The notes below the pieces were generated by a model. The model did not search any database and was not told the DNA's origin. It saw only the letters and a program-made list of their open reading frames with translations. Shown piece by piece: positions 3,299 through 63,451 of a stretch of DNA of 64,000 bases (position 1 is its first letter; each line of letters starts with the position of its first letter). The position numbers were made by a program, and so were the translations under genes. This stretch comes from Paramecium tetraurelia (taxonomy: Eukaryota; Ciliophora; Oligohymenophorea; Peniculida; Parameciidae). The stretch covers positions 357,210-421,209 of the forward strand of contig NW_001799544.1 in assembly GCF_000165425.1 (NCBI RefSeq), read 5' to 3'.

Positions 3299-5281
3299 AT
3301 GATTTATATACTCCTTTGTGTAGCCTTAGCTATTGGAGCAGAAATAGATGTTAATACATTTAGCAATTACATAGAAGTGAGTCAAGAGCATGTCCATATT
3401 GAATGGCTTCTTGATTTAGATGAGCAATATATAAATGCTACGAGTTAATCAATTTTCAGGGTTAATACTAATAAATTAAAGAAAGTAATGAATTCTCATT
3501 ATGATTAAGATTGACTTGGATATATATCAATTAAGTATAATAGCAGTTTATTTGTCATCTTCAGGAAATGTTTTATAACATGAAATAATAAACAAAGGAG
3601 ATCAATCGCTTTTGTAAGGAGATGTTCTCTCGATTCAATTAGATAGAGTTTATACTAGAGGAGAATACATTAAGTTAAACATAAAATATAATTTGGATTC
3701 AAAAGGAGCAAGAGCATTAGGATTTTTAACTAAAGAATAAACCTATAGTAAAGCAGTTCCATATCTATTTTCGCAATGTGAAGATAATAATTGCAGATCT
3801 ATAATTCCCTTATAAGATACACCAAGCATCAAAGTGTTCTTTACAGCAACTGTTTTGGTGAAAGATCCTCGTATCAATGTATTTATGACAGGGAATAAAT
3901 TGTATAATACGAAATTCAAATTACTCAATAATTATGAAAATTTGTAAGCACTAACACTCTATCAGTTTGAATTGGATATCAAGATTCCAGCATACTTGAT
4001 TGGAATTATAGCAGGTGAAGTGGTTGAAAAATCTACAGGAAATGGCACATATGTGATAGCAGAGCCTCATTTCATTGATGAATATGCTTAAGAGTTGTCT
4101 GATTTGCCAGTATACATGAAGAAAATGTAAGATTACATTGGACCATACATTTGGGGAGATTATAAAATTGTCATTTTGCCAGCCTCATTCCCATTTGGAG
4201 GTATGGAACATCCTTTATTAACCTTCGCAAGTCCAACTATTATAGTAGGTGATAAGAGTGGAGTTGGTACTGCCATTCATGAAATTGCTCATTCTTGGGT
4301 TGGAAATACAGTTACAGGAAGAAATTGGGCAAACTTTTGGATTAATGAAGGATTTTGTGTATTTTTAGAAAGAAAGATCTTATCTAGATTAAATGGATTG
4401 GATTCTGTTAAATTAGATGCAATTAATGGTAATTCTAGTGCATTTACGTCAATGCAAACTTTTGGTTTAGATAACTCATTCTCTAGTATGCATCCAAATA
4501 CTACAAACAGAAATCCTGATGAATCAACTAGTCGTGTTCCATATGAGAAAGGATATTAATTATTAACATATTTGGAAAGTTTAATTAAAGAAGATCCATT
4601 TTAATAATTCTTAAGAGATTACATAGAGAATTTCAAATTTTAGAGTATAGATGAAGATTAACTTTATTAATTTTTATTAAGTTGGGTTAGGAAAAACAAA
4701 TAAGAAGAAGCCTAAAGGATCATTGAAGAAATTTAAAAAATATGGAAAAAGTGGGTTTATACACCAGGTCTAGCACCAATCACAATTGATTTATCAACTC
4801 CATTGTTCACTGATGCAAATAACTTAGCTAAAGCATGGATTGATGGAAAAGGATAGGCTCCAGAAAAGGCAAATGATTTTCAATAATACAAACCAAATCA
4901 AAAGAGTGTGTTCTTCTAATATTTAATTGATAACTATAAAGATGTTGAAACTGCAGTAATGACAAAAATGGATGAAAAATATAAACTCACATTTTATAAG
5001 GATTAGAAGACTGTATATAAATGGTATAGGCTTGTTTTATTAGTGAAATACGATCAGGCGCTTGAAGGAGTTCATGATTTTGTATCTAAAGTAGGAGTAT
5101 CAAGTTACTTAAAAGTATTATATGATTTGTTGGGTTAGAATTATAAGTATATATAATTTTATATAAAAGTAAACAAGCATATGATTGGTTTGATGAGAAT
5201 AAGACCTTTTATCATCCAGTTGTAGTCTAAGCCATTGAAAAAATATTATAAAAATACCCTAAGAAACTTATTGTTGAATGA
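3299..5281 (+). CDS. Secreted M1-family zinc aminopeptidase (leukotriene A4 hydrolase-like)
   Basis: 644 residues after removing introns 3485-3509 (25 nt) and 5147-5169 (23 nt). It starts MIYILLCVALAIGA, a clear signal peptide, so the enzyme probably acts in the secretory pathway, food vacuole or outside. The zinc site HEIAH with the distal Glu in FWINEGF has the HExxH-x18-E spacing of gluzincins, at about positions 4278-4350. The substrate-binding motif reads FGGMEHP, where the usual form is GGMEN, so His replaces Asn. The C-terminal helical domain (LLSWVRKN, WIDGKGQAP, HPVVVQAIEKIL) follows the leukotriene A4 hydrolase plan, and length fits the family (about 610 plus the signal peptide). 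The reaction expected is removal of N-terminal residues from peptides; epoxide hydrolase activity cannot be inferred. Confidence 0.9.
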
Positions 5282-16040: not shown

Positions 16041-16303
16041 TAGATTTCTTGCAATTTATTCAGTTTAATCAATGTCATTATCTGGGTTCTAAACCCTTTA
16101 AAATTTATTGTCTGTTATTTTAGATTCAACAGCCTATTTATCTTAAACTTTCTCATCTATGTTATTAATAAGTTGATTTACTAATTTAAATCGTAATTGG
16201 GGGTTGATTTTCATCAGCATCATATTGATTAGCATTAACTTGAATAGTTATCTTACCATTATTATATGTATTAGTCTTTTATCCATTTATAGCCAAACAC
16301 CAA

Positions 16304-17287
16304 TCATATTTAATAATCCCAATCATATCCATGTTTCTAGAAGAGTTCTTTAAACATTTTTCTGAGAAAACTATAATCAGGTTTATCTTCAAATCTTAAT
16401 GATCTACAATAATTTAAGTAGGTTGAGAATTCAACTAAAAACATGATATTTTATTTTACTAGGCAAAGTCTTACATAAGACTTCAACTGGAGTGGTCATT
16501 TTCTTTTCCATAATTTTATGATATTTTTCTTATTTGTTATTTGCTTTGATTCCTTACCAAGGTAAATAACTTCTTAATAAATACACCATAACATATCCGA
16601 TAGCCTCTAAATCATCTCTCCTGGATTGTTCTATACCAAGATGTGCATTAATGCTGGCATATCTAGCTGTTCCTGTAAGATTTTTATTTTCTCTATATGG
16701 GATATGTTAATGAGTCTTAGCATCTCTATATTTCTTACTCAAACCAAAATCTAGAATGTACTTATTTTATTAATTTGATTATGTACCACTGTATTGGATT
16801 TCCTTCCTAACCCTATAAGAAAGTTATCTGGTTTGATATCTCGATGTATGAAGCTTTTAGAATGCATATATTCAACCCTTTGGATCATTTGATCTGCCAA
16901 CATGATGACAGTTTTTAATGAAAACTTTCTTTGACACAAACTGAATAAGTCTTCCAAATTTGGACCCAGTAAATCAATTACCATTACATTCAATCCTGCC
17001 TCTTATCCAAAATAATGCAATGCTGGAATACCAACTATTTTGCTTATTACAAAAACTACTTCCTCCTGCTAATGCTTTTGTAACTTTAGCTTCAAAAACT
17101 AACTGAGGATGTTTGGACTTAGCTTCTTCCTAAACAAATTCAAAATCATTATTACAAATTTGGCTGCCAATATGTCATTCTACTAAGTGGTCACCAAATA
17201 GATCTCTCCAAAAGAACCACTACCTAGTTTCTATTGGGTGATATATCTTCCATTATTTAATGGTATATTTTTTATCTCTGATTGCAT
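16304..17287 (-). CDS. Casein kinase 1-family Ser/Thr protein kinase
   Basis: 293 residues after four introns, 17130-17155, 17035-17059, 16761-16786 and 16435-16459. Kinase landmarks appear in order: [70 protein letters not shown] and [15 protein letters not shown]. The last carries the SIN motif that CK1 has in place of APE. The frame stops at TGA 16304-16306, right after GYDWDY. One base downstream in frame the sequence resumes as [10 protein letters not shown], the usual next block of CK1, and stays open through a Gln/Asn-rich tail (with a possible intron at 16157-16181) into the truncated globin. Either the kinase ends here, or a single extra T near 16309-16313 hides a CK1-tail-globin fusion. 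Confidence 0.88.
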
Positions 17288-17628
17288 TCAATTTTATTTA
17301 AATATATATTAGAATATTACAAATTTCATTTTACTTTTCATTAGATTATGATTAATATAAAGCAATCTAATGAGAAATCCACAACACTCTTAACTTCCAT
17401 AAACTTCAACAAACTACTCTACAACCATCAATAAAAAAGAAGAAATAAAAATATAATCAATTTTTTACAGAATTGTTGTAAAAAACTAACTAAAGCTTAG
17501 TTTAAATAACAAAGCAATAAAGTCAAAGAACTCATGAGTATTCATAACTTAATATTGGTATCATTAAGAATATCATCTAAATATAGTAATAATCATTTGA
17601 CTGACTTACTTTTTGTTAATAACTAATA
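17288..17628. promoter_or_regulatory. Intergenic upstream of the CK1 gene
   Basis: About 340 bp of AT-rich sequence without a protein-like frame. It must hold the CK1 promoter. Nothing more specific is visible. Confidence 0.3.
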
Positions 17629-17928
17629 ATGGTCACAAAGGAAGGCAAAAAGCCATTCATTATGACTGAATTCATCAATTAATATCAAGTATTATAATCA
17701 CAATTATTTGATATCAATACATACTCTAAATCTATTATTTATTATGAATTGTTAAAACTATCAGCAATAACATTTGAATTGTACTTATTAATATGTATTC
17801 TAATGTTCTTCTTAAATGATCAATATCATCCTCTTACTTATTTAAATGATTTAATCAATACTTATTTTAAAGTATAGAATGAATATGTTGAGATATAGAA
17901 ATTGAAAATAATTAATTTATAAGATTGA
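17629..17928 (+). CDS. Weakly supported 99-aa hypothetical protein
   Basis: Open from ATG 17629 (MVTKEGKKPFIMTEFINQYQ) to TGA 17926-17928. The middle is hydrophobic (LYLLICILMFFL) and could be one membrane helix. Composition is skewed to Ile, Leu, Asn and Tyr, as in translated A/T-rich noise, and I recognise no family. It may be a chance frame or a remnant; DNA just downstream has no clear continuation. Confidence 0.2.
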
Positions 17929-18646
17929 CACTTTCTAAATTTTAGATTAGATAAATTTGCCATTAAAGAATCAAATTTCTTATAATTAATATCTTTACTT
18001 ATTGTAATAAAATAATAACGACATTACCAGTCTATGATAATTATATTAATGATAAAATTAATTCTAGTAATCTTCTTAATTAAAAAGAAAATCATGAATA
18101 ATGAAAATTTGAACAAAATCTATCTGCTTGTGCTAAACAGGTTGGAGTAAAAATGATTGATTTAGATGACAAAGAAACAGAAAATTTTATGATATCATCA
18201 TGATGTTCCTAATCATTAGGAAAATAATATTATGAAAGTCTTCAAAATGTTTGAAAATTTTGAAGAGATTTAGCATAAAATTGGTTAAAATCAAATGAAT
18301 TGAGACTATCAAAGAGAATAAATGATATCATTCAACGATTAAAAAGGTAAGTAAGAGTTTATGAAATGATGGTTAATAAGTTAACTTAACTGTTCAATTG
18401 AAAATTAAAGTGTTTGAAACTAGAAGATTCTTATACAAAATTATAATAATGATTACTAATAATTTAATTATTAACTCTAATAATGAATTTAATCAAAATT
18501 ACTCATACTTTGCTTAAAAATTGTAACATAATAATAATAAACCTGGAAAAATATTTAGCAAATTATTTATCTAAGAGAATGAATAAATATAAATTTGTTT
18601 TACTCCTTTATCAAACATATTAATATCATTAAATTCTGTTGCAAAT
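17929..18646. other. AT-rich, no gene seen
   Basis: Short frames in all registers, interrupted by TGA, with A/T-noise composition. No repeat or motif stands out. It lies downstream of the WD40 gene's stop codon. Confidence 0.35.
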
Positions 18647-20188
18647 TCAATATTAAACTTAGTTTGTTCTTTTATAAATATAGGCTCTACTTTCAGTCAT
18701 AGAAAACAAAATTATATAGGAATACTTCTAATTATTATGAATGACACTCAATTCAAATTTCCCATTCATTTATTATAAACTGTCTAACTTGCCACTAGGA
18801 TTATTCTAATAAAGAATAACTTCACCTTCAAATAAGGTAAGAAATATTTTGGTTTCTTCACAATATTTGATTGAAATTAGAGATTTCTAGTTTAATATTG
18901 AAAATGTAACAAATTTAAATTCACTTTCAATTTTTTATTATTAATATAAATAGATATTTCCTAAATCAGACCCAACATAAATTTATCTGTTTCCTTGACT
19001 TAAACAAGTTATTTTCTCTTCATTCTCCAAAATAATCTATTAAAATTCAGAAAGTTCTTTATTATTATTGAAAATTTATAATTTATTTTCTATTATAACA
19101 AGCAAATATTTAGAATCTTTATTTAATTAGATCTCTTGTAGCTCTTGCCTAAAAGATTTCATTCTATTACATATTTTTAAACCCTGTTAAAAAGAATAAC
19201 TTTTAATAATATTATCCTTTCCTCCAGAAAATAATTCAGTATTTGAAAAGTCTACAATCAAAGTTATAACCTAATCTCTGTGCTACTATTATTGATCTTT
19301 TTAAATCCAACCCTTTCCTAAATTTTCATAAAGTGAGATAAAACCATTCTCATATCCAACAAATAATTAATTACATTTATTATTTAAAGCTAAAGCAGTA
19401 ACTTGTACATTAAAGTTATCGTTATTAAAATCAATAATAGATTAATTCTTAAATTCTAAATTTTCATCAATCTAAAGAATTTCTAAGTTCTTATAATTGT
19501 TGATAGGATATTATCCTTAGATGAGCAGATTTCCAGTTTAATTTAAAATAGCTGCTTATACCATGCTGGTTTAATAATCTTTTGTTATTTCAAATTTTTT
19601 TTTTGTTAAAGGAATTTATGATCTTATGGGTACAGGTATATTTGGTCTTTATTATTTAATTGATTTATCCTCTTTATCCCCTTTTACCAACTTTATTAAC
19701 TATTCAAAAAGTGTTATAAACTATTTTCGATAATTGGATTAGATTTCTTTTAATTATTCAGTAGTTTAATACATTGCACTTTTTTTTATATCACTATTGT
19801 AAACAAATTCTACTATCGCCCTTAAATCTTCTAGCACAAATTCTTTACCAAATTCTTGATATTTAATGTATCTCATTAATTTAGTAATCTCAAATTCGCT
19901 TTGTTGAATTACCTTCTCAATGTACAAAAACACCTAATTTATCATATTTTCTATCTCTTTCTTTAAATTCTATAATGTTGATTGAATATTCTTATAATTG
20001 AGATGAATAAGTTCAAACACTGGTAGTAGCTAATTTAAAGTAAATTGAAGCCATTCAATAGATTCTCCTCGACCCTTGCATAAAGAACACAAAAGCCTTT
20101 CTGATGAATTTACTTCTTATTCTGTTTTAATCCTCGTAATTGGTTAATTATGGCGAATGCATAATATTTTACTAAAAGGGCCATTCAT
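18647..20188 (-). CDS. WD40-repeat protein with N-terminal Cys motif and coiled coil
   Basis: 513 residues in one exon, from ATG 20188 to TGA 18647-18649. Near the N-terminus is LLCSLCKGRGESIEWL, a paired-Cys motif. About 150 residues of Lys/Glu/Gln-rich helix follow, likely a coiled coil (LKKEIENMINQVFLYIEKVI). From about residue 200 the sequence shows degenerate WD-type blades, for example LFVGYENGFISLYENLGKGW, LFSGGKDNIIKSYSF and IYVGSDLGNIYLY, with LLVIIENKLQIFN between them. Such proteins are usually scaffolds (family knowledge); partner and location are unknown. The protein at 59255-60676 shares the coiled coil plus beta-propeller plan and may be a distant paralogue. Confidence 0.7.
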
Positions 20189-21689
20189 CTCTGGTATAAA
20201 TTAATAAATTTATTATGAATTCATTATGAATTATCATAGATTTAATTTCTAAAATAACTTATAATGAATACTCTTTAATTACTTGTTAAATATATAGACT
20301 AATAAAGAAACCTCTTAAATGTTAATTTAAAAATTTGACAACAATTTATGACTCACAATTTTAAACCGTTCTGTTAGAGTTTGTTATTATTATTTATTAT
20401 GATTTAAATTTACTATTTAAATTTTAGCCAAAGCCAATTAAAATTAACTTATAAATTGTAGTTAGTAAAGAAAGAAGAGAAAGTAACAAATTGAATTTTA
20501 GTATTTATATACTTCAAAAAACATGTATAATCATTCTTAAATAAATTGCTAATCAATTATAAATTTACCAACCAAATCTATCATAATCTGAGGGTTTTAT
20601 TTTACTATCACATAATCATTTATACATAAATTTTTATAATATTATTACCATATTCCTATCATTCTTTAATAAATTTAATTTCTAAAGTAATAGATCATTA
20701 TACACTTAATAAATCCGATTTTCTAAAATAGTTTTTTCTATCTACATCTAGATGGTTGAAGTTAGTTTTCAAACCTGCTATTTCATTTGAACGACAATGA
20801 AACCTAGCCAAGATTAAAATTTAATTGCTAATATTCGTTCTAATTTTTGACAGTCATTATTTTACAATTAGATATATTTATGATTTCTATACTAAAATCT
20901 ATTATGCTTATAATATCATCTGGAGTAAATACAAAATGTCCTAATTCAAATAATTATAATAAATTCAAATATAAAGATGCTTAGAAGATTAATTAATTGA
21001 ATTTATTTAAATATTCCTAAAAATTTATCAAAATTATAAACAAATTATATTTTTTATTTGTAAAGTATAGACATTCAACAATAGTTAATTTTAAAAAATG
21101 GAAATATCTTTCCATGAAAGGCCTAACATAACTCTAAAAACAAATTAGAATAAAAATTTGATACGTTTTTAGCCAAAAAATCTAATTTAGGTTAGCATAT
21201 GTTTTTTACAATTTAGTTTTCTTAAAAAATTCAATTGAAAAATGATTTGCAACGTCTTTAAAATTTTGTAATCAATTTGAAAATGAATTTTTTAATAAAA
21301 ATATTTTTGATTTATTATTTCTTAAACTTTTTAATTCATTTATTTAATTATTAATTTAATTTCTGTTTCTTAAATAATTTAATTAAAATCTAATGATTAT
21401 TCAAGTTTTTTCTCAAACTTATTAAACTAGAATTGAGTAGAGCATTTAAATAAAACCATTTATTGAAATAAAATATATTTATGTTCAAGAGTGAAATATA
21501 TAAATAATTGACTTCCTATCAAATTTCGAACTTTATAAACTAGTTACATTTTTCTATTCATTCGCATCAATGTAATATAATGAACTAAAAAGAAAATTTT
21601 AGTGCCTAAATCAAATGCTCATTTATAATAAATATTGTTATGAGATATTTATAAATTCTGAATTATAAACTAAATAATAAATATTTCTA
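20189..21689. other. 1.5 kb without a recognisable gene
   Basis: A long stretch of A/T runs with no frame of protein-like composition on either strand. This is large for a Paramecium macronuclear genome, where intergenic distances are typically small. It presumably includes the promoters of the divergent WD40 and RING genes. The rest may be decayed sequence. Confidence 0.4.
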
Positions 21690-27616: not shown

Positions 27617-28860
27617 ATGGGATAATTGTCATGTGCTTAAATAGAGAAGCCAGATACCAATTTGTATAGGTTGACATTGGATTTCAATAAACAAGAAAAT
27701 AAGAATTCATTTGATAGATCCAATTCCTTTTCTTAAAAATATGAAATTGGTAAATACTTAAAAGTAGGAAAGAATCCTAAATTGGATGAAATGTGGGCAG
27801 AAAAACTGAATTCATTTAAAGTTTATGATGAACCCACTAGAACCTCTTCAAATTATAGAAATTCGCTTTCAAAACCAGATAATATAAAATAGTTTTTCTA
27901 GGATTGTCCTTTAATAACATAGGATTATGAATATTATATGTTTAGATTTTTCATTCAAGAGAAATAGGGGTTTAAATACTATGGATTGATAGGTCTTCCA
28001 TAAAAGTATAGATGGGGATATTGGAAAGTTATCACCTTACAAAAGGGTATAATGCATAAAAAGATGGATAAGCAAATAAGTGAAGCAACTTATTGTATTA
28101 AGAAAGACATAAACAGAACTTTGATTAATGATGTATTCAAAGAGGAGGCTGTTATAGACAAATTAGATTATGTCCTTAACAATTTAGCTAATTTATATCC
28201 TAAAGTAGGCTATTGCCAAGGTATGAATTACATAGCAGGTATCACATTAGGTACTATTTATTAGCATTATTTTTGATGGTTTCAGGAGTTTAAGAAAAAG
28301 AAACCGTGTGTGTGTTTGCTGAACTACTTGATTCCTCCTTTTACATGTTTAATCTGTTGTTTTAAGATGATTTACCTTTGCTTTTTATTATGGAGGAAAT
28401 CATTATGAAATTGATATAAGTGAGATTACCAAAAGTATATGATCATTTTATCCAATGCAATATCTCCCCTTCAATTTGGATAAGTAAGATTTTACTAAGT
28501 GGATTTGTATACTTGTTTGATCTATTGGATTGCGTATTATTTTGGGATTACATTTTTATTAAGGGATCTGTGTTAGGATACACAGACCTAATAATTTCAA
28601 TGGTGACTATCCATCAAGATGCCTTGCTGACTAAAGATGAAGCTGATCTTTCTTCATTTTTTAATTTTCAAGAGTAAAAAGTTAGATGTGCAGAGGACAT
28701 CATTAAATAAGCCTTGCTTAAACCAATAGAAGAAAAAGAGATTAGAAAAATAATGAGAAAAACAGATAAAAAATTAGATTTGGTGGAGCTATTTAAATTC
28801 TTTGGAAAAGAAGGATTTGAGAAACTGTATTAGAAATTCTCGAATGGGATTACGAAATGA
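27617..28860 (+). CDS. TBC-domain Rab GTPase-activating protein
   Basis: Starts MGQLSCAQ (Gly2 possibly myristoylated). About 100 polar residues precede the TBC domain, which opens GLIGLPQKYRWGYWKVI. The arginine finger lies in CIKKDINRT, matching IxxDxxR, and the glutamine finger in YCQGMNYIAG, matching YxQG, so the GAP should be catalytically competent. Later blocks are VCVFAELLDSSFYMFN, RLPKVYDHF and FWDYIFIKGS. Between 28254 and 28288 the frame changes. Removing GT...AG segments of 35 nt (28254-28288) or 14 nt (28254-28267) both restore it, giving 402 or 409 residues; the 14-nt option gives the smoother protein but would be unusually short. The role is switching off Rab GTPases in membrane traffic. 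Confidence 0.82.
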
Positions 28861-36047: not shown

Positions 36048-39000
36048 ATGATTTAAGAAGAAAATATGAATATAGGCAAAACAAACTCTAAAAATCAATT
36101 TTTTAGTTAAGACGATGATTAGAGGTCTTTGTTACATTACAAAAGTTTTGATTAGAAGAAGGTATTAAGTGAAATCAAAGAATATTATTAAATTAATCAA
36201 TCACTGAAGGGTATTCTTAAAGAATTATTGCATGTATCACATAAAATGCCACTTCCAGATGAATGTTTAGATCATATTCTTGAATTACTGCAGTCTGAAA
36301 TGAATAATTAATTTGAATAACTGACATATTGTCAAATCTTAAGACTATCAATCAAGAAGGGAGCAAAAATTAACATCCAGAAGTTCGTTACAATTTTCAA
36401 AGTGATAATAGACAATGATTCATTATTTGAGCTTGTTAGTATATTTTCCATAATGCTAGACCAAAAATAGTAAAAGGAGGAAGATTTAAATTAGATATTT
36501 AATTAGATTTTAAATTTTAATAATCTTAATGTAGAAATAAAAAAATCACTAAACCATCTGAAATATACTCTTAATCCTAAATACAATTCATCAAATTAAT
36601 AATAGCACCTGTTTAAAAAGAGTGGCATCAATCAAGTAATCGCAACCGTTGAAAGTCATGTTGATCATGAAAGAGTGTAGGATTCCGAATATGTCTAAGA
36701 GAACTTTCAAAGCATCATTCATGATCAACTTACAGAATCAGAGTTTTAGTATTAAGTTGCCGTTGAGAATATTGAAATAAAAGATGATATCAAATAACCT
36801 ACTCTCTTTAAAAGTACTTATGAGACTGTAAAATAAATATATGAATATGCATGCAAACATAAATAGATTCAAAAATAAGATAAAGATGAATATTTACCTA
36901 ACAAATTATTGGATCAAAAGTATTTTTCAAACGGGATTCTTGGGGAATTTATATGTGATCGAATGATAATCGAAACATTTCTAATTATATCTCAAAAGTA
37001 AGAATTAAATGAAAAAACTATTTAGAAGGTTTTTTAATTATGTAAAGGGATCGATGAGGTCAAAGGCTTGTTCTTAAAAAATTAATCTGAAAGTGTTTAT
37101 GTTAATTCTCTCCACAGAAGTGAGATCTAAATTGGTAATCTGAATTAAATTGAGGAAGTGGCTAAAAATATTTTAAAACAGTTTTTTAATCAGAATGAAT
37201 CTCATTCTAAACTTTCTACTAATCACAGTAGTATTTTTGGTGATAGTGAATTAACTTGCTTTGGCTAGAAAAGTTAATTAGTGATTGATGAAGTTATGAA
37301 AATTATGTATAAGTAATTCTAGAAAATCAGAGTATGTGCTCTCTAAATTATTTAAAATCTTATTAATTACTAAAAACTTCAATTGAGCCATGAATAAATG
37401 TAGTTCATTGAAGGACTGTAAGAAAATGATGAGGATAATGATTGTTTTCGTGAAGAAGCATTAAAGATTTACATCCTAACTTTTGATTAAAATAATTCTA
37501 AAAATGCGTTGAAGGTTTGCATTAATAAATTAGAAAGGAATCATTTTGAAGGAATTCAATATATACTAAATTAAAGTAAGAACGAAGAAAGAGCAAACTT
37601 CTTGTCAGGAGATAAAATTAAAATGATAATTAACAAGATTACAACGGATCAGTAATCAATATCAATTGATATTCGAAAAAAATTGACCTAAATTGTCCAA
37701 AATTTCTTAAGTCATTTACAATTAAATATTGAAGAAGAAGATTTTGAAAAATTATTCAAACTGTTCTAAAATTCAACTAAAATAGAATTAGAAAAATAAT
37801 TGCAATTTAATTTGCTTTAATCGATAATTTATTTTCTCAAAAAAAACCCTACTCATTAAGAAGTTAAATACAATGAGCTTATGACGGACTTAGAAAAGTT
37901 TGATGAGTAATTGCAAAACTTAATTATCTTAAGTCTAGGAACCATATTAAAAAGATGCTTGGAATAAAATCGAAATACTATTAAAATAAAGATCTCCGAT
38001 TTTCTTTCAAAAAAATTGTCACTTTCTTTTAAGATAAATCCTTAAGGAATCAAAGATGAGAGTGATTCAAATTATCCAAGGATATCTTTTATTGTAGCTG
38101 AAATCATTTATTATTAAGTATCGTAATCAAAAATTTAGCTGTCAGAAAATACTATTAGTGATCTGATTAAAATAATAAATAATCAAGATAAAGATTTACA
38201 ATTCTTATCAGTCAAGATTTTAGATGAACTTGAACAGGATATTTCAAAAGAGAATTGTGATAATCTAGTCCCTTAGTTATTTAAAATCCTTAAGGATGAT
38301 TATTAGAGATAATAATAGTTGATTTATTCATCTCTGTATACAAAGGTCATTTTAACTATCCAAACTGAAACTAAAGAATCAATTGATTTATAATATATTG
38401 AGCTTTTAGCATAAATTTGCAATTTGGATTAATTTGTTGAAAATACAGTATATTAAAAAATTTAAAGTAATATATTTGAAATTTTAAAAAAGCTACTAAA
38501 TGGTAAAAAAAAAATACCTTTAGAATTTATGAAAATGTTTGAAAATATTTTGATTAATGAACTTTAAACCTAACAGGATGTTATTGAAATTCTAAAGGTG
38601 TTTACAGAATATGAAAAAATACCAAATAACCTAGTCGTAGCACTTGAAATTCATCTAAATAAATCAGAAATACCGATGGATTTCTTCTTGATTTTAGAAC
38701 AAGTTATTCGAAATGGACATAGGGTTGCTGATTCTACTTTGCAAAAATATATTGATAAGATATCCAACTCTGAAAAGGATTCTGATAAATGCTTTGATAT
38801 TTTAGAAATAGCAGAAAAAAACCATACTTTATCTGAACATATTTTTACTTCTATTTAATTAGAAAGAGCAGGAAAAGCAATCAAAAAAAAATAGGATGAC
38901 TATCCTGATGCAATTGAATACATATATCAGAAAGTGTAGGAGGGATATAAGATATCAAAAAATATCTTTGAAATTATTGCTACTATTTTGGATGAAGCTA

Positions 39001-42000
39001 ATGATAAATTAATTAAAATTTTAGAATGTGCTTCAAGCAACGAATAAATAATTCCAAATGGTGTTGTCAAGAAACTTTAGGATATCCTGAATAAATAGGA
39101 TATTGATGAAAATGTTATACGAATATTTATGAATATGTTAAAAAATAAATAAGAGTTGTCTGGAGATCTTATACTTAAATTAGAAGAAATGTTAGATTGT
39201 CAAACTATTTCTGAATTGATCATATAATTTTTTGCTATTTCTAGTTAAAATTGTAAATTATTTTCTTTGCAAATAATTGAAAAATTGTGTAAACATATTT
39301 AAAATACAAATGATTTAAACTTAGAACTTAGTCTACTTTTAGCAATCAATACAAAAATTAATGCGAATAATTCATTTCATCAAGATATTACACTTATCAA
39401 TAGAGTTAATGAAGTATTAATATCAAAACTCTAAGTATCAAAATAAACTTTGTTGCCCTTATGTTTACAAATTACTAATTATATTTAATTGCATGCCAAT
39501 ATATTAGACTCAAAAATATAGGAAACATTGACTACGTTATTGTATGAAAAAGAAATCTAGTATGAAATTAAAACCGAAATTAGTAAAATATTAAAATTAT
39601 GTAAACTTGATGCATAAACATCTTAATTTATCAAGTAATTTGATTTTACATAAAATTCTAATAACAATAATTCAAATGATACTAATGAATAGATTGAATT
39701 ATTACCTGAGACCTTGAATTAAATAAACCTAATTTTTTAGGACGATAAAGATCAAGAGCAGCTATAAAAAGCAATTTCTCTGTTAAATCAGTGCAGAAAC
39801 AAAGATTAAATACCGTTTGAATTGACCAAAAGCATTATGATATGTATATCATAAAAAGATTTTAAACCCGATTATTTTAAACTCCTCAATCAAATAGTTG
39901 AATCTAACAAATTAATCCCTAGTGCTATTCTCAAATTTCTGATTGATAATTATGCAGATGATTTAGAACGTGGCTCATTCTAGTCATAAGAAAATGAAGT
40001 TCTTACACGAAACTTGTAGATGATTAAATAGTTAGATGCGCAAAACCAGGCTTGGAATTCAGAGTACTCAATCAATTTACTTAAAAGTATAAATCAGTCT
40101 ATGAAATCAGGGTTATTATTGTCAAAATAAAGAACTTAAATTATTTGTACTATATTCTAATCAACTTATATTAATATAGATTTGGTTTATATTTATTCAA
40201 AGATTTTATCTAAATTGGTGTTGAATTAATTTAACATGAATGAAATAATAGTACTAGAAGTAGTAAAATTAATTAAGCGAAATGATATCAAATTAACAAC
40301 CAAAATGATACAAGCATATACAAAGATTATTGAAGAAAAAAAGTATAAGGAACTACAAAATTGCATAGACAGCCTATTAACGAGAAAACTTGATAATAAA
40401 AAAATGTTAGCCTTACATGAATGTGTTTCATATGCCTGTTAATTTGGAGACGATTTGAAGAAAACCTGGTTGCCCATACTAGAAGATAATCTTGTATAGT
40501 AACCTATAATTAGCAATTTGTCTTTTAAAGGTTTACGGGCTGCAATGGATAAAAATTTAAGTTCAGATTAGTTTAATGGATATTGCAATATAATTTTAAA
40601 AGTATTGAAAAATGTTTAGGATGAAATTAAAGAAAACTATGATTTATTTGAAACTATTAATTACTTATTATAGTATGATTTGGCTAAAGTCTTTCAAAGT
40701 CCTGAGGATAATTGGCATAGAGAGTTACTTGAAGGTGGTTTTGAAATAAAAAATAAAGGGTGTAAAATTGAAAAAATAAAGGAGATTATTCAAGAAAATG
40801 GAATAAATTCAGAACATTATATACCTCTTCTAAAAATTATAACTTAGATTGAAGGATTGTAAGACATGTAATTTAACGATTTGATTATTTTTTTAAAAAC
40901 AATTGGATTGTAAGATACAAATTAATTGTTGAAGCAAAATATTATTTATGATTATGAGAAATGTTAGATAAAACTAATATGGGCCAAAGTAGTTTAAGGA
41001 TGGTTAAGAAAGATGATAGTTAACAAAATCAAAAATAAAATTAAATGTGGTCCATACATTGAAATTGTTTTTTTTTTTTTGATTGGCTTGATATGCAACG
41101 ACGAAAAGTAAGAATTGAATACATAATAATGTAATTTTCTTTTTTCATAAATAAGGGAGATCGATAACCTTAACAAATTTCAAAGTCTCTTAGAATTCAT
41201 TATTCAAAACGGATGTATTATTAAACATTCAGAAAATTAATATACAATAAATGAGTTGCAATAATATTTTGAAATTGAAGTTATAATTCTTAGATTTCCA
41301 GACCATAAAACAGATAAATAGTTAAGAAACATTATTAAATAATTACTTATGAAGGGTTGGACTTTTTAGAAATAGACAAAAATACTTGATAACCCTAAAG
41401 TAGCCAAACTAATTTCTCAGAGTGATAAACCTTTGGTGGAATTGTTCAAGACTCTTTATTATTACTAAGTTTCTCCAAATACAGACTTAAATAATATCTT
41501 CGATTAGCCAGAGCCATATAAGATATGGAGTTAAGTATTGTAAAAGTTATTTTTGGGAAGTTTTGAAGGGAATGCTGGAGAAAAGGACATATAGAAATTA
41601 GTGGATGAATTGGAAGAATTAAAATTCCCTAAGCATTTTTATATTGAAAAGATCAATTAAATTTAGACTTTGAGTGAAGAGAAAAAGAAATATACAGAGT
41701 AAGAAATATATTAATGGGTTGCAATAGTCAAGAATTAAGAGACTGAATAATTCAAAGATATTAATTTCATAGTTGAATTATTAGCTGTGATCAACTATGC
41801 TATTTTCAAAATTAAAGAGGTGAATTTAACTTGTACTTAAATCGTGACTGCATTGATCATTTTATAGTAAGAAAAGGATGAAGGAATATTATGTTAAGTG
41901 AAAACTGGTGATGGCAAATCAATAATAATAGGTATCATTGCCATATATTATGGATTGTAAGGAAAGAAAATAAATATTCACACCAGTTCTCCGATTTTAG

Positions 42001-45000
42001 CAGAGAGAGATTCAAAAAGTATGAAAAATCTATACTAGTTTTTTGGTCTTAGCTGTGCTGAAAATAGTGACAAAACCAAGTACAAGAAAAATGTAAAGAA
42101 ATGTTATGAAAAACAGATTGTATATGGAGATGTATCCTAATTTTAATTTGATTATCTTAGACATCATCACAGTCAATTGAATACAATGGGTGACAGAAAT
42201 TTAGAAATTGCAATTGTTGATGAAGTGGATAGTATGCTTATTGATGAGAGCTCAAAGTTTGCTAGATTATCCAGTACTGTTACTGGTATTGAGCACTTTT
42301 AATCAATTTATATTCTTATTTGGTAAAGAATTAAATAGCTTGAGGAGTAAATATATATCCTACAATCCAACTATTATTCCTAAAATGGAAATATTGTGAA
42401 AAAGAAAGAAGGTGAAAATCTTCATTTTTTGGATTCAGAATCTATTGATAATTTTGAGTAATTAAAGCAGTTGAGAGAAATAGAAACAATAGAGAATTTT
42501 GATGATTTTATGAAAGACCATTTAAAAATTTATATCAATGCAATATTGGAAAAAGAAGACTTTATAATTCTGCCTAAGTATTTTAGATAATATCTTGATC
42601 TTTAATTACCTAATTGGATAGATAGTGCCTTGTAGGCAATTAAATTAGAAGAGAATGTCCATTATGTCATTATCAATGGGAAAATAAAACCTGTTGATTT
42701 TTTAAATACAGGAATAATTTAAAATTCTTCTTTTTGGGGAAATGGATTACATTAGTTCCTGTAAATCAAGCATAATCTGAAAATCACACCTGAATCCTTC
42801 CTAACAAATTTCTTATCTAATGTTGGATATTTTAAAAAATATGAAAAGAGAGTTTTTGGCTTAACTGGCACTTTAGGTTCTCAAAAAACTAAAGAAATGT
42901 TGAAATAAGTTTATGGTCTGACTTCAGTTATTATTCCTTAAAACAAGTATAAGCTATTTAAAGAACTACCTTTAATTGTTGTTGATAATGATGAAAAATG
43001 GCTGAAGAAGATCATTGCATCAGCAAATAAAGAATGCAATAATAAAAGAGGTGTTCTCATTATATGTGAGACAATTTTAGATGCGAGGAAAATTCATGAA
43101 CAGTTATTGTCTTAGAAGTATTCAAGAAATATGATCAAGCTTTATGATATGAATAATAAATGTTTGGAAAATGAAATTGATGTCATTAAATCTGAACAAA
43201 TATTTGTTGCTACCAATCTTGCAGGCAGAGGCACTGATATCAATTCAGAGGATATTGAATAGTATGGAGGATTGCATGTGATATTAACATTCATGCCGGC
43301 TAATCAAAGAGTAGAAGAATAAGCATTTGGAAGAACTGCTAGATTAGGCAATAAAGGAACTGGATAAATGATATTAAATAAATTAAGCCTCAGGCATTTA
43401 ATTTAGAATGTAGAGGATTATTCACAAATGAAAATCAAGAGAGAGGAAGTAGAAGATGAAAGGTTGTAGAAATATGTGGACTAAAATTTGAAGGAAATCG
43501 AGTTAAAAGAGAAGCTGTTTGAAGACTTTTGTAATCTCTTGAGTGATCAAACAAAAAAAATCAATTCTTTACCAAAATTAACTCAGCATTATACAATTTT
43601 AAGTATAGAAGAAAAATGGGCTATTTTTCTACTGCAGAACAAAGATATGAAAGATGATATTGTTGCAAACTTTGAAAAATTTAAAAATGAGGTGGATAAA
43701 TTATGTGAAACGTAGTAAATCATATGCAATCCTTATTATAAAATAGATATTTTATAGAATTAAAAAAAAAAGAAGTTGCAAGATAAATTGGATGCTTTAA
43801 ATGAAATCATTAAAGTTGACGGCAAATCATTTGCTTCTGTGTATTAAGAAATTGGCTTACTCTATCTTTAGTAGGAAAATTAAGATAAAAATAAAGCACT
43901 AAATTATTTGTAAGAGGCAGTTGAGTTATTGAGCAAGGAAGTTGCTTAATGGTAGAGTTTGTATGTAACTTTATCAAAGTATTTGAAGAATTTTTAAGGG
44001 AGCGATTTGTAAAAACAAATTTATCAAAAGCTACAAATAATAGAAATTTGTGCTAATAGTATTGTAGAGAATAAGAAAGTAATATAGAAATCTTAGAGAT
44101 TAATAGATATTGTTTTGTAATAAGATATTAAACAGGAAAACATCTAATCCAAAACAATTAATCTTGGTTTAGAAAAATAGAATGCAATTTAATTGTGCCG
44201 TAATTAAAATGATACCAAGTATAATTTGATATTCAATGATCTCTGTTATTACCAAGACTATATTGATTAAGATTCTGTCATAAAAACTATTGAATAGATT
44301 TATGAGAACAATAAGCCAATTGATAAAGAAATCACGATATAATTAAATGAAATTATGGCATCCAAACTCAATTTATACTTCTATTAGAAAGCTCTCGAAT
44401 AGGGCTGTTTCTTCGATAAATAAACTGCTTTGAAAAAATTAAAAAACAATGAAAGGGATACTGTAACTAATTCTTCAATACTTTTAAAAACCTCTTAAAA
44501 TAAATTTGAATCATTAGCCATCCAAGAAGCTATTGAAAAAGTCAATACGGTTAATGAAACTTATATTGATATGATAATCATAAACAAACAGTCAGCATAA
44601 TGGTAAATTGAATTACTAAAAAATATGTAGATAGACATTGAGTTTATCAATTTGGATAAAAGAAATGTTGAATAAGATTTGTAAATTATTAAATCTGATT
44701 CAATTGATCTTGTAATTACAAGTGACATTGAAGATATTAACAAGTTACTAGATTTAGATTTTGTTTAGAGAATAAAGCATTTGAAGAAATAGCTACACAT
44801 CTCATATACAAAGGAGAAAGCTAAATAATCATTATTTAATATCAGCCAGAATAAATGTACTCAAACTATCTCCATTTCAAAAATCACAGAAGAATAGGTT
44901 AAGGAAGTACTGAATAAATGTAAAGAAAAAGCAAGATTCAATCTATAATTAAATTCGATATAAGGGGTTTGTTGGATAGAAGAGAATCTCTTTATTAATG

Positions 45001-46994
45001 TAAGATTTAGACTTAAAGATCATAAATGGATTAAAGATTTAATAAGGTGGTTAAGGTAAATCTAATTAGAATTTTAATTGATCTTTAATAATCTGGATTA
45101 TAATTAAACAAAAGAATATATTTAAAAGGCAGACATTCAATAATAGGATGTTTAAGTAGTCAATAGGAAAAAATTAAAGGAATTTCTTTAGTCATAAGGA
45201 CAAACTGAGTAACAAGAATATTAGAATTTTAAAGCAAGAGGATTTAAAGAAATCATTACATTGAATGAAATTAAGTTCTTTCCCTTCTATAACATACTAA
45301 TTCTTGGTACATTAGCCTTTTCCTAATTGATAGTTGGAGGTGTCTTAGTTTCCACAGGACTGGGAAGTATTCTTGGCAAGATGATTCTCTAAGAAGGTAT
45401 TTCAGATGTCATAAGCCTTATAACATCTTGCTATAGGAGAGAATTTTCATGGTCCGATTATTGTTATTAAAAGTCTGCCAGTGTATTATGTACTGTCCTC
45501 ACGTTTGGATTGAATGCAATCAAAGATACAAGTAAAACAAGATAGTTCGTTGAAAGTTTTGGAAAATACAGAAGCGTCAAATTAAGTTCTATTGTTCAAC
45601 AAACATGGATATTGTCCTTTTAATCAATTGTCATCAAAGGGAGTAATCTGATCCTCACCAACATTATTTCAAAAGCACTTATAGATTGTAAGCTTAAGCT
45701 ATCGTAATATCTGTAAAAAATTATTTAGGAAAAGTTCTCTGAAAAGGATACAATTAAACTTTTGAGGAAAATTGAAGTATTATATTAAATCAAGAATGAA
45801 AATTTCACTGAGAATATCCTAAAATATGGCATTGAACTAATAACAAAAATTGGATTTATAAATTAGTTCATTATTTTACTCCAAAAACTCATAATCAATT
45901 CTACAATATCTGTAAATTTCGAGTTTGAAAGCTGGATTTTAAATTGTTGTGATAAACTTCTTAAAGTTGCAACCATAGTTTTAACCTAAAATTTATCAAT
46001 TGATTTATTACATTCTTAATTTATAAAGTAGTTGATTAGTTATGCTAATAAAGAATATAATCTCTAAATTGTATATAAATAATGGAGTAGTAACAAAAAT
46101 GTAACTTAAGTTACAGAAATTGAAACTATAACAAAGGTAAATGAATTTTTAGGCACACAGGCTGAAATTTATAATGAAATTGAGTAAAAAACATATTATA
46201 AACTTAATGAATAACTCAGACTTGAATTAATTTAAAATTAAACCTCTTAATAATTATTAGATTTCTTTAGCGATTTAACTGAACGTGAGACAAAACTTGA
46301 AGATGAATCCTATTTAAAAATCATTTCAGAATTAAGCTAATAATTAACTAAAAATGTATCAAGTTTGGTAGAATAATAAATTCTTTTACCTTGGATTAGT
46401 TCTGCCACATATCAATTTTCAGAGAGTTTAATTTCAAATTTTTCTAATCACAATATAAAAGAAGAAAATTATGAAAATATGTAACATAATTAAAGTGACC
46501 ATAAAGAAATTGTAGAAAAAATAGAGAAGCTAATACAAAAAATAGAAAGCGAAGCCATTCCATAATAAACATCAAATCATGAACTTAATCAAAATCCTGA
46601 GATGGGAAATTAATAACACCAAGTCCTTAGGCGTCCTTTTTAAGCTCGAGATTCAGGAAGCCCGTTTATTCCCATTGATAATGAATAGCAAATGTTGATT
46701 GAACAATAAAAGATTTTAGAACAATAAAAGATGTTAGAACAATAAAAGATGTTAGAACATCAAAAGATGTTAGAACAACAAAAGATCATTGAGCAACAAA
46801 AGATGATTGAAATCGGACTTCTCTAATATTTGCAGCATGAAAGGGGAGATGCTGAATAAAAAGAGGATGACGATTCATTTTATAAAAAAACTTGGTTTAT
46901 TTCTATTGCTTTAGCAGCAATCCCATTTACGTTATTACTTTGTATTGCAAAAACTGCTTACAAAAGCAATAACAACCCAGAATTATCTAATTGA
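36048..46994 (+). CDS. Giant protein with SecA-like DEAD motor domain and C-terminal membrane anchor
   Basis: A single uninterrupted frame of 3649 codons from ATG 36048 to TGA 46992-46994, read across its length without an intron. Residues 1-1900 are helical, with LxxL-type repeats and no known domain. The motor follows SecA: Walker A QVKTGDGKS ending at residue 1958, then TSSPILAERDSK, IVYGDVSQFQFDYLR, Walker B AIVDEVDSMLIDESS (DEVD 2058-2061), FGLTGTLGS near 2272, NLAGRGTDI near 2390 and the arginine-finger block FGRTARLGNKGTG near 2429. A TPR-like helical region follows, a hydrophobic stretch near 3080 (ILILGTLAFSQLIVGGVLV), a hexapeptide repeat at 3549-3588, and a C-terminal helix WFISIALAAIPFTLLLCIA. 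Bacterial and plastid SecA are about 900 residues and push proteins through SecYEG; this cannot be a simple orthologue. Function unknown; ATPase motor on a membrane is the inference. Confidence 0.85.
46692..46815 (+). repeat. 18-bp tandem repeat encoding LEQQKM hexapeptides
   Basis: About six and a half copies of an 18-bp unit inside the SecA-like gene, encoding variants of LEQQKM (IEQQKI, LEHQKM, IEQQKM). Glutamine is written as TAA in early copies and CAA in later ones. The unit would extend a coiled coil just before the C-terminal membrane helix. Confidence 0.85.
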
Positions 46995-61166: not shown

Positions 61167-63451
61167 ATGATGTTGTTAGAAAAGATAGAGTGGCAAATGG
61201 AGGATTTTAAAGGGTAAAATGAAGATAATGTAATTATGTTAATTGGAAAAACACGATGTGGAAAAAGCCCAATTTATAATTCTTATGTGGAGCTCCATTT
61301 TATATCAGTTAAGATGAACAAGGCAGAATAACTCTTGAACTTCTTTCAAAATAAAATATATTCCAAGAAATAAGATAAGGATTAAATTCAAAAACTAATA
61401 ACCCTAAGATATAAAATCGTATGGATTATTGTAAAAACCCTCTCTAAAATGAAAGTATAACTCTGTTTGATGGTTAATTTTGGGAAACTGTATAATTACC
61501 TATTGTCAATAATAACTCAACTACTGATTCTTAAACTCATTAATTGTATATTTATAATGCATCAAAAACAAAAAACTTTGAAAATTAATTATGGGCGTTG
61601 CAATCAACTTAATGTGCTTTCACAAGATAAAATTCTGTTGAATGTTATTATATAAGCCTGAGTTTATTTACCAAATTAGTTAATATTATTTTGAAAAAAA
61701 TACATATGAAGAATTACAGAATCTTGTATAGTCAGCAAGACAAAAGAGGCCAGTTAAGTGTTCTCAAAATTTGATTTAAACAAGCATATTTAAGTGATAT
61801 TAAATTAAAAATCTCATTTTCTAATTAGGTTTTTTTTAATGCTTATTTTAAATTGCTTGAAATATCTACCCGTAATTTAGAATTTGTGGAATCAAACAAA
61901 AAAAGAAAATTCCTAATGAACCCTTTCATTACTAATGTAACTTTAGGTTAACAATACTAAAAATATGGACAAACAATGGCTCTATTCATAAATCAATAAT
62001 AGTATAAATCTTTGATATATTGATTAATAGAATGCAGTTTTTGGTAAGTAGTTCTGATAGAATACTAAAAATGATTAAACAAATGTGTTTTTAATAAATA
62101 AAAATAAATAATATTCTATCGTAATAATTAAATTAATATGTAAAGTCCAAGTTAAATTTTTAAAGAATAAAGTGCTCTCAGGTCCAAAAGTGAGTTAGTT
62201 TAAAGAAAGTAAAGCAATGAAAATAATTTTGCCATCATATAATATAATATCTAAAGCGAAATTAGACTCAAGAATAAACATTCAATAAAAGATCAAATAG
62301 AATTTTTACAATCAGAAATTACAGCTTTAGATTAAATAACAGATTAATTAAGTGAGGAACAGAGAAAATATAGAAAGAGCAGATTGAAATTAAAATTAAT
62401 GTAAGTTTTGAGACAAAGTGAGCATGTTTCAACATTATCAATAAATCATATAGGTTAAAAAATTGAAAAAGAGAATAAAGAACTTATGCTTTATGTGTTA
62501 AAAGAAGCTTTAGCAAGAGATTAAAACAGAGAATTATTTATGACTGATGGGATACACTCTTGCGGATTTGATTCGATAATAGGAGCCTTTGGTTAAGATT
62601 AAGAATGTCTAAGATTCAGAACAACTTAAGTAGAATATGAATAATTAAAATCTGATTGTATGTTAAGGGAAGAATATTTATTAAATTTTCAGGAAAAAGT
62701 TTCAAAAATTTTTAAGGTTAGTCCATCGGATGTTTAAATTTTAGATATAACTGAAGGTAGCAGCATAATTTCATTCAAAATTTAGAGTAAAGCTGACTTA
62801 ATAAATGAACCAGAGTCAATGGAGTTTTTAGAAAAAACATGTAATGGAAAAGTTGATATTTATAATTATTTTTTTGAAAGTAAACATAACAAATCACGCC
62901 AGATAGGATTAAGCAGTAAAGATTTTGATAGTAGGTATAATATGGTTTGGGATGGTCTTCGAGAATGTCAATAGAGAGGACCTCTAAATTAACGTTATGA
63001 TTATTATTTTCCTAAAGGGTGCTATGGTTTTGGTTTAGATATTACCAAATATGGAATTGATTAAAATTGGATTTAAATGGATGGTAACAAAGATGAATGG
63101 AGAATATTGTTCCACGGAACAAAGAATGAGAATGTAAATGATATCATAGTGTCTTCTTTAAAAGAAGGATGGAGGAGTTTATATGAAGACGACCTATGTA
63201 AAGATGAATTTGGAAATAATGTTCCTGTTGGAAAAGGAATATACTTCTCTGATAAGTTCACTGTTTGTGTTGATAAAGGTTATGCTAAACCTATTCAAGT
63301 AAACAATAAGTCTTTCTCTGCCATCTTTATGACAAGAGTTAATCCGAAAAAAATCAGATAATCTGATCGCATGAAATAAGAGCGCTATTTTTTAGTAAAT
63401 AGAAGTGCAGATGTTAGATAATATAGAGTCCTAATATATGAGAATAAGTGA
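61167..63451 (+). CDS. P-loop NTPase fused to an ADP-ribosyltransferase-like domain (one frameshift)
   Basis: Starts MMLLEKIEWQMEDFKGQ. A Walker A motif follows (MLIGKTRCGKSPIYN). The frame then shifts by one base near 61280-61290: LCGAPFYISQDEQGRITLEL continues in the next register, as if one T were missing from TTCTTATG. After that, introns 61758-61784 (27 nt), 62002-62030 (29) and 62145-62172 (28) each remove TGA codons or restore frame. The C-terminal 150 residues, FPKGCYGFGLDITKYGID, WRILFHGTKNENVNDIIV and VPVGKGIYFSDKFT, have the His and Tyr blocks of a PARP-like fold. Total length is about 733 codons if one base is restored. The activity would be GTP/ATP binding coupled to ADP-ribosyl transfer (inference). 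It could also be a recent pseudogene. Confidence 0.6.

Follow-up and report, generated by a model that had tools for sequence, protein, structure and literature searches.

Why does the genome of the ciliate Paramecium tetraurelia contain a gene for a giant protein built around a SecA-type motor, and what might such a protein do? The gene lies in a stretch of 64,000 nucleotides (contig NW_001799544.1, positions 357,210 to 421,209 of the forward strand), which was analyzed at its full length and is referred to here as the window. Sequence comparisons indicate that nearly the whole protein, beyond the motor alone, is common to giant proteins of intracellular bacteria, a grouping defined in the present analysis that we call the giant SecA-motor family of intracellular bacteria. 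Within it, the ciliate protein appears to be a tail-less member, closest to proteins of the ciliate-symbiont lineage. Our preferred explanation, which we consider probable by a modest measure, is that the gene is a domesticated, disarmed symbiont delivery machine whose product is now a membrane-tethered, polypeptide-threading ATPase.

36048-46994, plus strand: whole gene for the giant SecA-motor protein (3648 residues), in a single frame under genetic code 6

The closest relative of the motor region in plasmid records, found with tblastn (44% identity over 92%, E 6e-162), was a gene of Candidatus Megaera polyxenophila, a Rickettsiales symbiont of ciliates, in a record from a Euplotes culture; weaker plasmid matches were to Legionella geestiana and Candidatus Bandiella. 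Candidatus Megaera has been studied in Paramecium, in an article whose text, searched by word, makes no mention of SecA (PMC13134042). The Megaera plasmid gene encodes a SecA-like domain protein of 5225 residues (WPX99843.1, here P0002), which forms a single continuous alignment with the ciliate protein through an N-terminal arm, the motor, a linker, a hydrophobic C-terminal module (C-module) and a boundary motif. In comparison to the ciliate protein, P0002 has ~1380 extra C-terminal residues, is written in the bacterial code, and adjoins a second SecA-like gene (1589 residues).

36135-46400, plus strand: stretch (ciliate residues 30-3451) co-linear with residues 218-3842 of P0002, 28% identity, 1043 bits

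Ciliate residues 31-3265 also aligned at 1096 bits with L157, a protein of 4441 residues from the order Rickettsiales, and a third relative, L159, has 4200 residues. These alignments demonstrate full-length homology of the ciliate protein to three bacterial proteins. A preliminary description of the locus, made from its letters alone, had proposed a membrane-tethered remodelling or translocation motor; that remains the likeliest activity, but the near-full-length kinship with bacterial giants had been overlooked.

36048-41627, plus strand: N-terminal arm (residues 1-1860), helical and perhaps HEAT-like, homologous to P0002, L157 and L159
43650-45230, plus strand: helical linker (residues 2535-3061) common to Megaera, L157 and L159, at best weakly TPR-like

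Arm residues 1-1750 scored 321 bits against P0002, while 50 shuffles gave 35 bits at most. HEAT was undetected in the ciliate arm itself; HEAT_2 occurred below its cut-off in one of four arm rows, while in the L. geestiana member HEAT exceeded its cut-off. The arm profile had no match among PDB sequences, and the linker profile had five weak ones there, including two TPR-type designs and one TPR-containing protein.

The motor consists of two halves, of which the first comprises nucleotide-binding domain 1 (NBD1) and the second NBD2.

41646-42884, plus strand: SecA_DEAD motor half (residues 1867-2279), NBD1 and the C-terminal part of the cross-linking region, by Pfam (8.7e-40) and alignment to SecA2
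41901-41921, plus strand: Walker A KTGDGKS (residues 1952-1958)
42219-42230, plus strand: Walker B DEVD (residues 2058-2061)
43005-43349, plus strand: second motor half, Helicase_C (residues 2320-2434), by Pfam (2.1e-5) and fold search
43329-43343, plus strand: GRTAR arginine-finger motif (residues 2428-2432)

The SecA motifs named in the preliminary description were all present in the translation, and their order (KTGDGKS, TSSPILAERD, FDYLR, DEVD, LTGTLG, AGRGTDI, GRTAR) is that of SecA; GRTAR aligns with GRSGR in Clostridioides difficile SecA2. Pfam places the motor at residues 1867-2434 (SecA_DEAD is PF07517), and a P-loop_SecA profile matched at 8.6e-6, slightly under its curated cut-off. 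In a PDB sequence search, all 24 distinct sequences found at E <= 0.1 were SecA or SecA2. An AlphaFold2 model of residues 1862-2990, built from a 20-row alignment, had a mean predicted local distance difference test (pLDDT) of 69.2; it is good over ~1862-2681, where block pLDDT is mostly 70-94 apart from a few weak loops, and poor downstream. In a Foldseek search with this model, ranks 1-36 were all SecA, with template modelling scores, normalized by target, of 0.79 for the isolated SecA motor pair and 0.66 for the SecA-SecY complex 5eul. The earlier assignment of the motor to the SecA type is upheld by both its sequence and its predicted fold.

We also compared 12 motor positions (the Q-motif Q, three in Walker A, D and E of Walker B, T of motif III, R and D of GRGTD, and Q and two R of motif VI). 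The ciliate residue is the prevailing one at 11 of them, each kept in 43-45 of the 45 other family rows, and at the Walker A S/T position it is S, one of the two usual residues. The key motor residues are thus intact. A superfamily-2 nucleic-acid helicase or remodeller that merely resembles SecA is, in our judgement, improbable: GRTAR in place of GRSGR, the Helicase_C match and the position of helicases next after SecA in the fold search all favor it, but the last SecA (E 3.6e-16) and first non-SecA (2.7e-7) fold matches lie about nine orders of magnitude apart, and the region from the cross-linking domain into NBD1 aligns with SecA2 sequence. A viral-protein fold search gave helicase-like and similar matches only (best 1.1e-9).

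Judged by its domains, the ciliate protein is not SecA proper. This is because the wing/scaffold (SecA_SW, PF07516), cross-linking (PF01043) and SEC-C (PF02810) domains were undetected in it at E <= 1, while the single control SecA (L042) matched all three, PF07516 at 6.2e-56; PF01043 was partial in P0002 (1e-5, positions 52-109 of 110). NCBIfam SecA models scored 136-189 bits on the ciliate protein against cut-offs of 725-1493, including 165-171 bits for two general SecA equivalogs with cut-offs of 800-814. These scores, the undetected domains and the clustering of the motor with symbiont giants in the tree described below make a SecA-type preprotein translocase for a ciliate organelle, whether mitochondrion or cryptic plastid, very improbable, even though profile and fold both identify the motor as SecA. 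An ordinary SecA or organelle translocase was rejected on the undetected domains and tree position.

Beyond the motor, the preliminary description had pictured a hydrophobic, tail-anchored C-terminus opposite the helical arm. That layout holds, with the refinement that two hydrophobic stretches are involved: residues 3077-3114 belong to an internal module that is conserved, and the tail anchor lies apart from it at 3613-3638.

45228-45539, plus strand: conserved hydrophobic C-module (residues 3061-3164), ending FSWSDYCYQKSAS, predicted membrane-inserting helices
46365-46427, plus strand: candidate boundary motif (LVEQQILLPWISS..), residues 3440-3460, found upstream of the variable tail in five bacterial open reading frames (ORFs)
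46470-46991, plus strand: tail (residues 3475-3648), a glutamine-rich predicted coil followed by a C-terminal hydrophobic helix
46884-46961, plus strand: predicted C-terminal transmembrane anchor (residues 3613-3638), hydropathy 2.34 over 19 residues

A hidden Markov model of the C-module, built from ten bacterial members with the ciliate excluded, matched the ciliate protein at 5e-28. At 1e-3 this profile matched 51 of the 7821 ORFs of the fetched loci (a count that includes the ten seeds and duplicate fetches), and 50 of the 51 had a motor (score >= 295) in the same ORF; in the remaining case, L122, the module was in a separate frame and the motor on another frame of the same locus. The module is carried by 24 of 28 complete non-redundant family ORFs (motor score >= 395), or 14 of 18 without the seeds. 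Of 21 ORFs from L004-L086, 15 have both module and motor, and in these the module lies 713-1276 residues from Walker A; in the ciliate protein the distance is ~1106 residues. No Pfam family covers it in the 14 rows scanned at E <= 1, where LysM appeared in two rows (in the tails) and the other families listed in one row each (best 0.004); no known family could thus be proposed for the module.

A GQLIxP-like motif precedes the tail in Megaera, L157, L. geestiana (represented by two copies of its locus), L011 and L172, and the ciliate protein has EQQILLPW at 3440. The pattern was written post hoc from examples already seen; in L003, L016, L012 and L008 it picked up LysM or unrelated stretches as well, and a pattern search did not find it in other family members. 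Homology was undetected for ciliate residues beyond ~3475. The anchor was modelled as a helix (block pLDDT 42-58), and the C-terminal region lacks a detectable toxin domain, the sole Pfam match in residues 2980-3648 being YoeB (E 0.1), whose 13 bits fall short of the cut-off of 27.

The bacterial tails differ from this. Twenty were scanned, 19 of them from 330 residues past the C-module and L016 from a nearby point, and five have a toxin- or effector-type domain above the Pfam cut-off. Three of these are strong: Colicin_D in L010 (2.3e-18), WHH (2e-13) with Colicin-DNase in L012, and AHH in L161 (1.3e-14). Two are barely above it, namely Peptidase_C48 in L160 (1.8e-4) and a Pertussis_S1-type domain in L008 (1.7e-4). 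The L016 tail has LysM alone. L159 (a lipase) and L165 (pentapeptides) had matches only below cut-off, as did L018, L170 and L158, whose matches were unconvincing; nine tails, Megaera and L157 included, had no match at E 0.05. As five of 20 tails have such domains, a toxin role is supported in part of the family and is extended with caution to the rest.

Where is this family found? A scan of genome contigs with a motor alignment (A1) matched 158 stretches, of which 90 encode relatives and 80 were kept, many of them ordinary SecA genes. A1 was also searched against whole genomes at 1e-50, a level at which some matches are shorter proteins of ~900-1400 residues and some are ordinary SecA (e.g., L133, by tree). 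Genomes with matches numbered 33 of 343 in Rickettsiales, 21 of 143 in Legionellales, 14 of 232 in Chlamydiales, and two of 299 (one being G005) across Pseudomonadota. At E <= 1e-79, a family cut-off chosen after viewing the tables, the counts were 30/343, 5/143, 4/232 and 0/299, respectively; some counted genomes probably contain A1 seed proteins.

Several further observations were made on these loci. On the Megaera plasmid, the 5225-residue giant (L001:347-16024) adjoins the 1589-residue SecA-like gene (16046-20815), and Wolbachia wBol1_1092/1091 (11829 and 4488 nt), in the part of the report consulted, has a long-plus-short layout that resembles this pair (PMC3639933). A second motor ORF near a giant was clear in Megaera; it was weak and on the opposite strand in L017, present as neighbouring pieces in L116 and L119, and absent from the stretches examined for L157, L158 and L159. 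Five loci (L031, L026, L030, L023 and L024) from Legionella, Coxiella-titled and Parachlamydiaceae genomes form a group of ~1000-residue SecA-like proteins; the two scanned had no wing/scaffold, and the group is on the ordinary-SecA side of a midpoint root, yet apart. In G186:C1 (order Rickettsiales), three equal-score matches, each within a 467-residue open frame, occur at three sites, which suggests a repeated family fragment. Two IMG/VR contigs filed as viral, L084 and L085, encode near-identical giants of 3555 and 3557 residues, and the L085 arm has a RickCE-like protease match (0.0024) below cut-off. A viral origin was considered and set aside: no relative turned up when viral contigs were scanned once with the protein, two alignment scans returned the same three contigs, and 23 phage records matched, with 24-31% identity, at the level of SecA, among the 20 matches listed, most of which are unannotated.

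The SecA-motor gene of the window has the marks of a coding gene of a ciliate. Under table 6 it is translated as a single open frame from ATG to TGA, so the one protein of 3648 residues described earlier stands. At the base composition of the gene, ln P of 3648 codons without TGA is about -76, and the remaining two forward frames contain 83 and 217 TGA codons. TAA or TAG make up 250 of its 342 glutamine codons, and its codon usage correlates with that of eight neighbouring frames pooled (r = 0.976); the coding assignment rests on these two features. Eleven GTA-TAG intron candidates of length 3n lie inside the gene, two with GC content <20%, and the frame is complete without any intron. The objection, raised in advance, that the ends of 36048-46994 might be separate genes is weakened because a bacterial homologue is one gene over an equal span. 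Bacterial contamination or an assembly artefact within the ciliate scaffold is barely conceivable: the closest plasmid relative is indeed a gene of a ciliate symbiont, but identity to that gene is just 28%, the flanks hold eukaryotic genes, and contamination is ruled out by the genetic code, with 250 TAA/TAG codons in frame, together with codon usage of the ciliate kind.

From which direction did the gene come? The preliminary description had called for a SecA_DEAD phylogeny; the one built here, from bacterial sequences and the ciliate, places the ciliate inside the bacterial family. In a quick tree of 83 rows, the ciliate grouped with Megaera (Shimodaira-Hasegawa-like approximate likelihood ratio test 98). 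A careful tree of 67 rows comprised those with a motor score >= 395 and a selection of shorter proteins and ordinary SecA; it left out five matches without a readable Walker A, one short match and copies sharing an identical 200-residue core. In this tree, the ciliate joins G357 and the pair of Megaera and G230 with support of 100/100, and these three bacteria group together at 100/99. The enclosing clade of 22 rows has 98/96, and a 46-row family, ciliate included, is separate from ordinary SecA at 100/99. Long branches occur in several rows, and the ciliate row is atypical in letter make-up. The family has 45 rows besides the ciliate, of which two come from contigs filed as viral; a constraint uniting these 45 to the exclusion of the ciliate costs 52.85 log units and was rejected by the approximately unbiased (AU) test (p 0.0021). 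The ciliate protein thus nests inside the bacterial family in this tree of bacterial rows, viral-filed rows and the ciliate, and we infer that the gene passed from symbiont to ciliate. Its ciliate codon usage and the 28% identity point to an acquisition far back.

The reverse has been proposed for related genes. In Wolbachia wBol1-b, the consulted part of one report describes two giant secA genes, adjacent by locus number, whose full-length matches are only insect proteins and whose secA-region matches include Tetrahymena, Polysphondylium and Salpingoeca; its authors inferred transfer from eukaryote to bacterium and gave, in that part, no mechanism (PMC3639933). Giant SecA-domain genes in eukaryotes and Rickettsiales were thus published by 2013, and the suggestion in the preliminary description that other eukaryotes carry long SecA-like proteins was sound (PMC3639933). 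SecA is also listed in the eukaryotic association module of phage WO (PMC5062602, PMC9203015) and has been rated more homologous to eukaryotes (PMC5062602), as far as the consulted parts of these articles go. The Wolbachia study and the rating of phage WO SecA (PMC5062602), together with a codon usage so fully ciliate that it implies long residence, favor a family born in eukaryotes, in which ciliates retain the ancestral non-toxic form and intracellular bacteria captured the gene and added toxin tails. We regard this as rather unlikely, since the ciliate is enclosed by the diversity of the 45 other rows, the bacterial-only grouping is rejected, and the motor itself is of a bacterial SecA type. 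Transfer into eukaryotes followed by transfers back may also have occurred.

The preferred explanation, domestication of a symbiont delivery machine, can be set out as a sequence of steps. Most of the complete bacterial members have a long N-terminal region, a SecA-type ATPase, the hydrophobic module and then a variable C-terminus, in some cases a toxin domain. In these giants, the hydrophobic module would likely insert into a target membrane, through which the motor would thread a polypeptide, probably the tail of the protein itself. Such a gene most likely entered the ciliate lineage long ago from a Rickettsiales-like symbiont; the ciliate copy would then have shed its variable part close to the boundary and acquired a membrane anchor at the C-terminus. 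The ciliate protein may now move or extract other proteins as a membrane-tethered threading ATPase; threading or extraction at a membrane is the simplest role because key motor residues are kept over such divergence and the C-terminus carries a tether. Blocking related symbiont toxins is one plausible use. A more specific version, that the bacterial proteins are motor-bearing, self-translocating polymorphic toxins of protist-dwelling bacteria and that the disarmed, membrane-anchored ciliate copy moves host proteins or intercepts toxins, is possible but short of probable. If true, it would make the ciliate protein a host resistance factor built from the enemy's injector.

Several points weigh against this explanation. 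Fifteen of the 20 tails lack a toxin domain above cut-off, and none of the three nearest relatives has a recognized toxin (P0002 and L157 had nothing at E 0.05, and L159 only the sub-threshold lipase). Four of the 28 complete members lack the C-module: L017, the short Megaera neighbour, and L105 and L122, both short or broken frames. The arm matched just P0002, L157 (identical to L099) and L159 at 1e-3 and no other ORF, which leaves its constancy across the family in doubt. For the C-terminal part the structural model is poor (mean pLDDT 47.9, with helices 3080-3171 in blocks of 56-78), so membrane insertion is argued from hydropathy. SecA_SW holds the substrate-pushing parts of SecA; as Pfam did not detect it in the ciliate protein, polypeptide threading is proposed by analogy only. 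Lastly, the group used in the AU test was named only after the tree had been inspected, the ciliate is the sole eukaryote in the tree, and the Wolbachia study inferred the opposite direction of transfer.

Several neighbouring frames in the window match eukaryotic families. Among 20 such frames scanned, families above cut-off were an M1 aminopeptidase with a leukotriene-A4-hydrolase C-terminus, a papain-type protease, syndetin, a Rab-GAP (in two frames), a kinase, a WD40 protein and a dual-specificity phosphatase. Below cut-off were a second beta-propeller and a weak match to the PARP catalytic domain (3.3e-5) in the frame at 62138-63451; nine of the 20 frames had no family match at 0.001. Between the two Rab-GAP (TBC) frames, an apparent GTA...TAG intron of 26 bases lies, on our reading, at 28239-28264, a size that we take to be Paramecium-like; GC, at ~26% on average, likewise suits Paramecium or a close relative.

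Placing the ciliate gene and the motor/module/variable-tail giants in one family offers a testable mechanism, that of toxins bringing their own translocation motor, and the tail-less ciliate version is a tractable place for testing host reuse of, or resistance to, such machines. Among the matches listed from the open-access literature (preprints and most subscription papers lie outside it), no publication joined these points. In the parts consulted, PMC10132079 contains no SecA, PMC11077975, PMC9111745 and PMC8163844 do not describe the family, and PMC4452313 covers secondary SecA_DEAD proteins of other phyla.

The ciliate protein shares with SecA and SecA2 the two-lobed DEAD motor, Walker A and B, TGT, GRGTDI, the motif VI residues and the SecA fold. 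In contrast to them, it is about four times longer, SecA_SW, SecA_PP_bind and SEC-C are undetected, it has TSSPxLAxRD, TGTLG and GRTAR signatures, and it belongs to a separate cluster in the tree. For spider latrotoxin, the consulted part of one report describes relatives in bacterial endosymbionts and a likely transfer from endosymbiont to spider, a precedent for a eukaryote gaining a giant endosymbiont toxin (PMC3482391); the latrotoxin C-terminal domain was not among the matches listed (25 of 29 Pfam families) for the C-terminal region. Three other systems are likened by description only, from the consulted parts of the reports. The eukaryotic-like secA of Wolbachia and its insect and Daphnia relatives are giant SecA-domain genes in eukaryotes and Rickettsiales, with Tetrahymena among the matches, but no C-module or toxin tails are described there and the opposite direction was inferred (PMC3639933). 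Amoebophilus effectors have SecA-like domains inside the effector polypeptide (PMC3482391), and giant actinobacterial toxins contain a SecA-like ATPase for which a role in secretion has been predicted (PMC8195603). Unlike these effectors and toxins, the ciliate member lacks a toxin tail and carries a membrane anchor instead.

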